Below, one piece after another: positions 4,449-49,066 of a DNA stretch of 64,000 bases. Each line of letters starts with the position of its first letter. The first letter of the stretch is position 1. The DNA is taken from positions 1 through 64,000 of the forward strand of contig JAFZSP010000010.1 of NCBI GenBank assembly GCA_017619335.1, read 5' to 3'. The position numbers and the translations under genes are program-made. Source of the DNA: Bacteroidaceae bacterium. GTDB lineage: Bacteria > Bacteroidota > Bacteroidia > Bacteroidales > Bacteroidaceae. The notes beneath the pieces are model-generated. The model ran no database searches. It had not been told where the DNA came from and saw only the letters and a program-made list of their open reading frames with translations.

Positions 4449-6860
4449 CTACTTCCGCTTCTTTTTCTTGCCTTCTTCTTCGTTGCCATAGCCATAGCCG
4501 TAGCCATAACCATAGCCGTAATGGCCGTAACCATAACCGTAATGGCCATAGCCATAGCCGTAGCGCTTCTTCTCCATCTTGGCATCATTGATGACGATGC
4601 ACAAGTTGTTGAATTTCTTCTCGTCATACAGGCGCTGTAACTCAGGCAGATAACGGCGGTCAATGATGCCTTCACGCACCACGTAGAGCGTCACATCGGC
4701 CACACGGTTGACAATACCGGCATCGGCCACCACCTGGGCAGGAACGTTATCCACCACAATATAGTCATAACGCTGTTTCAGCTCTTCAAAGAGCGCTTCC
4801 AGACGGTCACTCATCAGCAGTTCAGACGGGTTCGGAGGCGTGATGCCGGCCGGCAGCATATCCACATTGTGCTCCTTGTCCAACGGCATAATCAGCTCGT
4901 CCAAGTTCTCCACACGACTGCTCAGGTAGGACGTCAGACCCTCATGGTGGCGGATACCCGAGAGCTTGGTCTGCGTGCGCTTGCGGATATCGGTATCTAT
5001 GAGGATAACGCTCTTGCCTGTCATGCCCAGCGTCACGGCGAAGTTGCGGGAGATGAAGGTTTTACCCTCACCGGGCGTGGTGGAGGTGAACATGATGACC
5101 CGCGCGTCCTTCTTGATGAAGTTGAGGCTGAAACGCAACATGCGGAACGACTCGTTGATGGAGTTGGTGTTATGCTCACTCACGAGAATGGCGGCATCTC
5201 CGATACCTTCCTTGCGGTGGGGAATTTCACCCAGCACGGGAATCGTGGTGTTGTCCTCGATATCCTTTCTGCCGCGAATACTCATATTCAACAGGCTGCG
5301 CACGTGGAAGAAAGCGAAGGGCGCCACGATGCCAATCAGCAGGGCTATCAGATAGATGACCTTGGTGCGCGGGGAGATGGGCCTGTTGCTGCCGAAGGGC
5401 TCTTCCACCACGCGGATATTTGCTTCCTGGATGGCCAGCTGAAGGGCTGTCTCCTCACGCTTGTTCAGCAGGTAGGTGTACAGGGTCTCCTTGATGGTCT
5501 GCTGACGGGTGATGTCCAGCACTTCTTTTTCCTTGTCGGGCACGCTGGAAATCACGCCTTTCACGCTGCGCTCTTCCTGACGGGCGCTCTGAAGTTGCAC
5601 ATTCAGGGACTGGAGGAACGCCTCGGTGGTGGCAATGATATTGGCGCGCATCTGTGCCAGGTTCTGGTCGGCCTGCTGGATGCGGGGTGTATTCTCACTG
5701 GTGTTCTGAATCAGGCGGTTACGCTCCAGCATCAGTTCATTATACTTCATGATCTGTTGCTGCAGGCCTGCATCGGTGATGCCTCCCAGGGTGGGAATGA
5801 TATTCATGCCGTTGGCCTTGTCCTTCAGGTTGTCCAGCAGGTACTGCACCACACCCACCTGGGATTCCAGCTGGATACTGCGCTGGCGGGCAGAGATGTT
5901 CTGCTGGAGGAAGGCGTTGGCATCGTCCTTGAGACTGACGAGGCGGTTCTGTTGCTTGAAAGCGGCCAACTGACCCTCCACTTCACTCAGTTCCTCACTG
6001 ATGATCTTGATGCGGTCGTCAATGAAGGCTGCGGTGCTCTCGGCCACACGGTTCTTGTCATCAATGATGCTCTTCCGGTAAGCTTCCAGGACGGCGTTGA
6101 GGATATCCTCGGCACGCTGGATATTATTGTCGGAATACTGGATGCCCACGAGGGTGCTCTCCTTGTCCAGTTCACTGGATTTCAGCGGGCCGCCGAAACT
6201 ATTGGCCGCCTGTTCCACCGTTGTGTGAGTGACGCGGATGGTCTTGCCGTCAAAGTAATCCAGGTACTGCTCCATGGGAATAAGCGCCATGCGGCCGATG
6301 GGCGTGTTGATGGTGTCACCCAGCCGGAAGTTCTTCTCGAAGAGCTGCTCTCCCTCGATGGTCTCGAGTTTGGACAGACGAGCCTCGCGCCCGTGCAGTT
6401 CTATCATAAAGGTATAGGGCCGCTTGGTCTCCACGGTGTCAAAGACGGCCGTGAAGGGACGCACATCATACAAGCTGATGGTCTGCAGACGACGCTTGTA
6501 GGAATAGTTCACATCCAGGCGCAGGCGGCGAACCACCTCCATCATAATCTGGTGGCTCTGAAGGATATAGACCTCATTCTTCACGCTGGTGCCCATCATG
6601 ACGCCATTGAGCTGCATGAGGGCATCGGTGCCGATTTTGGAGCGGGAACCGCCGGCAGACTGGTCATCCTTCACCAGCATCACGGCAGAGCGCTGGTAGA
6701 TCTTGGGCTTCGTGGCCAAATAAAGACGGGCGACTGCCAGACAGAGAATGACCGACAGGATAAACCACTTCCAATTATATACAAAGATATCAATAATGTC
6801 ACGCAGTGACAGCATATCATCCACCAACTGCGACTGTTTCTTCTGATTGATTTTTGCCAT
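4449..6860 (-). CDS. Wzc-like polysaccharide copolymerase / tyrosine autokinase
   Basis: The 803-residue inner-membrane protein has a short cytoplasmic start, a first membrane span (about 33-53, WFILSVILCLAVARLYLA), a Wzz/GNVR-type periplasmic region with coiled coils (about 250-450), and a second span (about 520-540, VIYLIALLIGIVAPFAFF). It ends in a cytoplasmic BY-kinase domain. Walker A is TTPGEGKT (about 592-600), Walker A' is VILIDTDIRKRTQ (about 618-630) and Walker B is YIVVDNVP (about 700). The C-terminal tail is a run of about twelve Tyr alternating with Gly (about 770-795), the usual autophosphorylation cluster, and then Lys/Arg. Such proteins control chain length and export of capsule or exopolysaccharide. 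Its partner Wza-like gene lies just upstream. The start is at ATG 6860. Confidence 0.92.
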   Translation of the reverse strand: MAKINQKKQSQLVDDMLSLRDIIDIFVYNWKWFILSVILCLAVARLYLATKPKIYQRSAVMLVKDDQSAGGSRSKIGTDALMQLNGVMMGTSVKNEVYILQSHQIMMEVVRRLRLDVNYSYKRRLQTISLYDVRPFTAVFDTVETKRPYTFMIELHGREARLSKLETIEGEQLFEKNFRLGDTINTPIGRMALIPMEQYLDYFDGKTIRVTHTTVEQAANSFGGPLKSSELDKESTLVGIQYSDNNIQRAEDILNAVLEAYRKSIIDDKNRVAESTAAFIDDRIKIISEELSEVEGQLAAFKQQNRLVSLKDDANAFLQQNISARQRSIQLESQVGVVQYLLDNLKDKANGMNIIPTLGGITDAGLQQQIMKYNELMLERNRLIQNTSENTPRIQQADQNLAQMRANIIATTEAFLQSLNVQLQSARQEERSVKGVISSVPDKEKEVLDITRQQTIKETLYTYLLNKREETALQLAIQEANIRVVEEPFGSNRPISPRTKVIYLIALLIGIVAPFAFFHVRSLLNMSIRGRKDIEDNTTIPVLGEIPHRKEGIGDAAILVSEHNTNSINESFRMLRFSLNFIKKDARVIMFTSTTPGEGKTFISRNFAVTLGMTGKSVILIDTDIRKRTQTKLSGIRHHEGLTSYLSSRVENLDELIMPLDKEHNVDMLPAGITPPNPSELLMSDRLEALFEELKQRYDYIVVDNVPAQVVADAGIVNRVADVTLYVVREGIIDRRYLPELQRLYDEKKFNNLCIVINDAKMEKKRYGYGYGHYGYGYGHYGYGYGYGYGYGNEEEGKKKKRK
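4485..4563 (-). repeat. Tandem 6-bp repeats coding the Tyr-Gly tail of the Wzc-like kinase
   Basis: Repeated CCATAG/CCGTAG units (GGCTAT/GGTTAT on the coding strand) encode the alternating Tyr-Gly tail. Slippage in units of six bases would lengthen or shorten the tail without shifting the frame. Confidence 0.7.
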
Positions 6861-48780: not shown

Positions 48781-48886
48781 TGTCTCATTAGTGAGACAGG
48801 GTTGTCTCAAAGGTGAGACAAAGGAGTCTCATTATTGAGACAGGGTTGTCTCATTAATGAGACAGATGTGTCTCACCTTTGAGACA
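48781..48886. repeat. Array of five 18-bp palindromes at an exact 22-bp period
   Basis: TGTCTCATTAGTGAGACA (48781-48798), TGTCTCAAAGGTGAGACA (48803), AGTCTCATTATTGAGACA (48825), TGTCTCATTAATGAGACA (48847) and TGTCTCACCTTTGAGACA (48869-48886) start every 22 bp, with 4-bp spacers (GGGT, AAGG, GGGT, GATG). A half-site (TGAGACA) follows at about 48891. It lies between a terminator and the MATE transporter promoter. The sites look like operators of a dimeric protein placed on one face of the DNA. They are not CRISPR: the spacers are four bases long. The bases from 48900 to 49060 hold nothing else that I see. Confidence 0.85.
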
Positions 48887-49066
48887 AACATGAGACAAAG
48901 GACGTGCAGGGCGATGCGGCAAATAGCTCATTCGGTTTTGGGGGAATAATAGGTGATTTCAACGCGGTCGGGGTGTTGGCTGCACACCTTTTACAAAACT
49001 TAGTTAAAAAAGAAAGGGGAAGATAATAAAAACATCATTTTAGGATTCTATCTGTCAAAAAAGCAG

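Follow-up and report, generated by a model that had tools for sequence, protein, structure and literature searches.

Phased palindromes in a Bacteroidaceae genome are probably an iteron-like cluster of DUF6078 sites left by a small mobile element

The palindromes at 48781-48886 of the window, five in phase (the whole 64,000-nucleotide stretch analysed here, from contig JAFZSP010000010.1 of a Bacteroidaceae bacterium) probably represent an iteron-like cluster of sites for DUF6078 (PF19555), encoded by a small mobile element of rumen bacteria. The copy in the window is a decayed element, of which part of the end of the DUF6078 gene and the array are left. The anatomy of the intact element, the covariation of protein residues with palindrome bases and the relic itself were established by computation.

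The array in the window and across its own genome

An earlier note, made from the sequence of the window, had placed units at 48781, 48803, 48825, 48847 and 48869 with an exact 22-bp period, and rechecking the sequence bore this out for all five of the 18-bp palindromes. Its consensus, TGTCTCN6GAGACA, is perfect in four units, the one at 48825 carrying A as its first base, a single mismatch. The true arms are 7 bp long (TGTCTCA-N4-TGAGACA, with 69 of 70 arm bases matching), and the loop and the spacer measure 4 bp each, the array being a run of 7-bp half-sites whose direction alternates every 11 bp. The features are as follows:

48781..48886, minus strand (sense taken from the polarity of the loops and from the relic alongside): five TGTCTCA-N4-TGAGACA palindromes arrayed with a 22-bp period
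48781..48798, no strand, by pattern match: unit 1, perfect
48803..48820, no strand, by pattern match: unit 2, perfect
48825..48842, no strand, by pattern match: unit 3, with A for T as its first base
48847..48864, no strand, by pattern match: unit 4, perfect
48869..48886, no strand, by pattern match: unit 5, perfect
48891..48897, no strand, from the sequence: one more half-site, TGAGACA, following the array in direct orientation
48928..48975, minus strand, by similarity to L016 and a shuffle test: what remains of a DUF6078 gene at its 3' end, HPDRVEITYYSPKTE followed by a stop

An additional half-site in direct orientation also stands at the array ends of loci L008 and L009. Elsewhere in the window, a 21-bp tandem repeat of 3.9 copies occupies 4485-4562.

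The genome search for TGTCTC-N6-GAGACA that the earlier note had proposed returned 43 exact sites in the own genome, compared with 0 for a reversed control pattern, and the array is therefore not a product of chance. Apart from one isolated site, inside a gene that we take from its sequence to be parA-like, all of them fall within 15 arrays of 4 to 9 units each (86 units in total), every array keeping the exact 22-bp step. Across these arrays the inner arm bases are 98% conserved and the loop and spacer positions about 58%, and the loops show a polarity (CCNN) that is mostly consistent within an array. With up to two mismatches allowed, the whole genome holds 102 sites (9 for the control pattern), and since 85 of the 86 array units are among them, half-decayed arrays are rare, an outcome that the near-perfect patterns used to seek arrays tend to favour. 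Another dispersed repeat, AATGCCTACGGCAT, was seen near several arrays (L012, L014, L015 and L017).

The arrays of the own genome adjoin unrelated genes, and one lies inside a kinase gene. This speaks against a host operator that controls the MATE transporter, a reading prompted by the MATE ORF that begins 229 bp downstream of the window array. When orthologous regions were compared, as the earlier note had also advised, the array preceded the MATE gene in the own locus alone and in 0 of the 19 other MATE loci of the genus (20 loci in all), two of which have different 22-bp repeats alongside. The MATE operator was consequently rejected, and we regard it as barely credible.

The arrays belong to a two-gene mobile element

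In the intact element the order is inverted repeat, promoter, DUF6078 gene, array, PrimPol-VapE gene and inverted repeat. The second gene encodes a PrimPol-like domain (PADLOC PrimPol model) and a helicase-like domain; the primase-helicase protein of L008 matches both PF08800 and PF05272, and in the L010 copy VapE and DUF3874 are present and PF08800 is absent. In both of these loci the array directly precedes the VapE-like gene, within inverted repeats, and three gene-less copies have the arms of L010. A transposase gene or an integrase was not seen among the genes of the element, NCBIfam gave no match for the three proteins searched, and in eight elements examined no target-site duplication was clear, there being no empty site for comparison.

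A search of the genus with the L008 protein found matches in 94 of 139 genomes, from which 30 primase-helicase loci were fetched, 27 of them with sufficient upstream DNA. Upstream of the PrimPol-VapE gene, 22 bp was the best period in 23 of these 27 loci, two more had a 22-bp array and two had none; downstream, a 22-bp signal was present in one of 29. Flanking inverted repeats were found at 21 of 26 loci, compared with 7 of 26 mismatched pairs. A promoter-like box (TAnnTTTG) lies at about -570 to -850 in 18 of the 27 loci, and 20 of 21 leaders hold a DUF6078-like ORF of 143 to 160 residues between this box and the array, the repeats adjoining a DUF6078 and a primase-helicase gene as would be expected of an iteron replicon with DUF6078 as its putative initiator.

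An order-wide search of 247 genomes matched the primase-helicase in 29, the own genome included, and beyond the genus the sole clear upstream 22-bp array among these 247 was that of L278. In a second primase-helicase subfamily (about 34% identity), most of 19 stretches have upstream 22-bp arrays, the exceptions being L267, L272 and L273, which lack one, and L275, which is too short.

DUF6078 genes and the relic in the window

The gene in L016 matches DUF6078 at 109.3 bits (curated cut-off 27), as does the one ORF tested from the primase-helicase loci, and the other leader ORFs fit the alignment of the family. DUF6078 is present in 82 of the 139 genus genomes and as a single gene in the own genome, where an array begins 8 bp past its stop codon. 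Of the 113 DUF6078 genes with enough flanking DNA, 67 are followed on the 3' side by a 22-bp array of palindromes; the corresponding figures are 4 of 60 for the 5' side and 1 of 250 for random windows. By this 3'-side test about 40% of the genes have no array; arrays and DUF6078 do not coincide in every genome, and many of the assemblies are incomplete. PADLOC and PHROGs gave no match for DUF6078, a search of the literature library found no paper naming it, and none of the papers listed was recognised, from its listed entry, as describing these arrays.

The C-terminus of DUF6078 is a predicted helix-turn-helix in which the key residues open the second helix after a short turn, with a pLDDT of about 90 there; the model is unreliable in the N-terminal half. 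A fold search with the C-terminal domain placed lambda-repressor-like regulators in several of the top rows, all of them weak matches (best Z 3.6, no E below 0.001).

In the window, the minus strand at 48928-48975 reads HPDRVEITYYSPKTE plus a stop codon. This 16-codon stretch is what remains of the end of a DUF6078 gene, for which the intact counterpart in L016 has YDRVEVTYYFPND plus a stop. The score of this relic, 52, was reached by none of 60 shuffled flanks. Read in the sense direction, it precedes the array by a short distance, as the gene does in intact elements, and because the array stands beside it on the expected side, the window copy is read as an element that decayed while its array survived. 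Inverted repeats were looked for around the window array and none were found.

Residues of DUF6078 covary with palindrome bases

We scanned all 145 protein columns against every variable palindrome base in 39 genes with CA-N4-TG arrays (34 unique proteins, 28 after clustering at 80%; the tree analysis, without L369 of the other subfamily, used 33). The best predictors were three consecutive residues after an FGS motif, at the start of the second helix. With the 34 unique proteins, the top-ranked column was 97 for both d5 (z 11.2) and d6, 96 for d8 (z 7.9) and 98 for d9; in the clustered set column 73 ranked above 98 for d9. With R, K or H as the first residue, the eighth base counted from the centre is G, and with other residues it is T; with A or P as the second residue the fifth base is T, and with S or T it is C. 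The DUF6078 protein of the own genome has RAQ at the three positions. The rule has no exception in 33 unique proteins, and on the protein tree all eight base changes at d5 and all four at d8 occur on branches that also show a change in the matching residue class. This covariation strongly supports binding of the arrays by DUF6078, which we hold to be probable. In a second DUF6078 subfamily (FG-RNxYF or FG-RSxYF), AGTACT or GGACT palindromes were seen (L412, L426, L364, L427 and L384), RSA being paired with CGGACT and RNQ with GGTACT.

The code also extends to arrays unlinked to a DUF6078 gene. Learnt from arrays that adjoin the gene, it was matched by 59 of 81 unlinked arrays in nine genomes when each was compared with the code of its own genome (permutation mean 19.7, p 5e-5). 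This count leaves out gene-adjacent arrays, overlapping matches of one array, genomes for which no intact DUF6078 of the same type was available, and G068, whose one listed array is in the kinase gene discussed below. The poor fits came from G076 (2 of 9) and G142 (8 of 13).

The PrimPol-VapE protein might instead bind the array, with DUF6078 covarying merely through genes that travel together; the array does lie between the two genes, and in PICIs the origin is just 3' of the initiator gene according to the accessible part of PMC6092414. At the 18 loci shared by both proteins, however, the 694 columns of PrimPol-VapE gave a much weaker signal, with a best z of 3.6 (d5) and 4.2 (d8), compared with 8.1 and 6.3 for DUF6078 (in this subset column 121 stands slightly above column 97 for d5). 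Solo arrays, moreover, obey the DUF6078 code, and binding by PrimPol-VapE is in our judgement decidedly improbable.

Structured repeats had also been suggested, and an RNA of tandem hairpins is conceivable in that every unit could fold into a hairpin (7-bp stem, 4-base loop) and in that the arrays of intact elements, lying downstream of a promoter-like box, may be transcribed. The period nevertheless stays at 22 bp while loop length differs between families (0 to 6), and the covarying partner of the array is a set of helix-turn-helix residues, which leaves this reading with next to no likelihood. The part of the earlier proposal that fits is that of phased sites for a DNA-binding dimer, since the arms are conserved, the loops and spacers free, the period invariant and the bases covary with a predicted helix-turn-helix protein; an operator specific to MATE does not.

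Arrays in other species and in a kinase gene

A scan of species genomes with a two-unit pattern found 44 stretches, nearly all in Bacteroidaceae or Bacteroidales bins, many of them from ruminants. The pattern also matched Mesorhizobium, Trichococcus, Bradyrhizobium, a Clostridia bin and five viral contigs (L045, L058, L063, L071; L077-L081). When the pattern was relaxed to three YCA-N4-TGR units spaced by 22 bp, 63 of the 139 genus genomes matched, most of them with few control matches; G161, G096 and G108 matched the control pattern alone, hinting at other cores. Other species of the genus, among those whose matches were listed, carry 22-bp arrays with palindromes of their own, and because they keep the architecture with different sequences, the notion that GTCTC marks a target of DNA modification fails. 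In a sample of six other genomes taken along contigs irrespective of arrays (about 711 kb), 22 was the commonest repeat period above 15 bp. Composite arrays, in which quite different units share one 22-bp phase, were seen at L054:7166-7337, L057:3131-3457 and L050:4397-4568.

The array on contig C54 lies in frame within a gene that, from domains recognised in the sequence, we take to encode a hybrid histidine kinase, in the part for its ATP lid. Orthologues of this kinase have 22-bp arrays in the same place, of TTTCCCA in G018, AGTTCCA in G127 and AGTCCCA in G153, and in G068 TTTGCCA occurs among other palindromes. The palindrome at the kinase site agrees with the DUF6078 code of the same genome in G000, G127, G153 and G068; G144 and G071 are discordant, having another palindrome, and G003 agrees in one arm only.

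Solo arrays would persist either because they are still bound or because they were copied recently. The fixed arms in the own genome, with free loops and spacers, favour selection there. In G134 copying is favoured, since near-identical array copies sit there within a dispersed repeat of about 150 bp, whose fixed flanks include the last DUF6078 codons (L322-L335). Copies of this kind, together with the gene relic beside the window array, are what one would expect if solo arrays were inert relics, formerly bound by DUF6078 inside elements and now without function. Against this stand the 12 solo arrays of the own genome (68 units), in which inner arm bases are 98% conserved and loop and spacer positions average 61%, and the rarity of half-decayed arrays there, with the bias of the search patterns borne in mind; we therefore think inert relics unlikely. 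Conservation and the matching code suggest that solo arrays may still be bound by the single DUF6078 protein of the genome. A bolder proposal, which we put forward tentatively and would not bet on, is that solo arrays are genome-wide DUF6078 docking sites under selection, rewritten in trans, even inside the kinase gene, when the three residues change. If true, a mobile-element protein and sites scattered over a bacterial chromosome would be co-evolving fast, in a way that could be read as a simple residue-base code.

Discussion

In the mechanism we favour, each palindrome would be recognised by a DUF6078 dimer through the residues that open the second helix in its C-terminal helix-turn-helix, and dimers two turns apart would align side by side on one face of the DNA. 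By analogy to satellites, the complex of DUF6078 and array in intact elements probably recruits, positions or loads the primase-helicase and so starts replication of the element, and it may also control the element.

REP/BIME and MITE sequences are dispersed palindromic repeats, mostly intergenic. The arrays resemble them in being dispersed palindromes with some gene-less copies flanked by inverted repeats, and differ in the fixed 22-bp phase and in the linked DNA-binding protein of matching predicted specificity.

Closer parallels come from integrated elements that replicate. The pri-rep-ori region of PICIs and SaPIs, as described in the accessible part of PMC6092414, combines primase and initiator functions with a repeat origin just 3' of the initiator gene, and here too the repeats lie 3' of a presumed initiator gene beside a primase gene. 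Unlike what that part of the source describes, the presumed reader here is a separate helix-turn-helix protein, the element has two genes and inverted repeats with no integrase seen, and the palindromic repeats keep strictly to a 22-bp period. In the PLE satellite of Vibrio cholerae, the initiator RepA_N binds semi-palindromic iterons in a non-coding region (PMC7145576, in the portion available), and our candidate iterons likewise lie in non-coding DNA of an integrated element. PLE, however, replicates as a phage satellite in the course of ICP1 infection, and we saw nothing that connects RepA_N with DUF6078. For VirE domains, a helicase role in mobile elements has been predicted (PMC5862659, accessible part), and the second gene of our element matches both the BT4734-like primases and the VirE/VapE helicases of such elements; the accessible part of that paper makes no mention of DUF6078 or of an adjoining phased array.

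For DUF6078, a family of unknown function, these results offer a function hypothesis with base-by-base predictions and tie the family to a compact two-gene mobile element. The covarying sites and the three residues would allow the DNA target of a DUF6078 protein to be predicted from its sequence, and about thirty protein-site pairs form a natural series in which a helix-turn-helix protein changed its specificity. The element also accounts for part of the common class of 22-bp repeats in rumen Bacteroidales.
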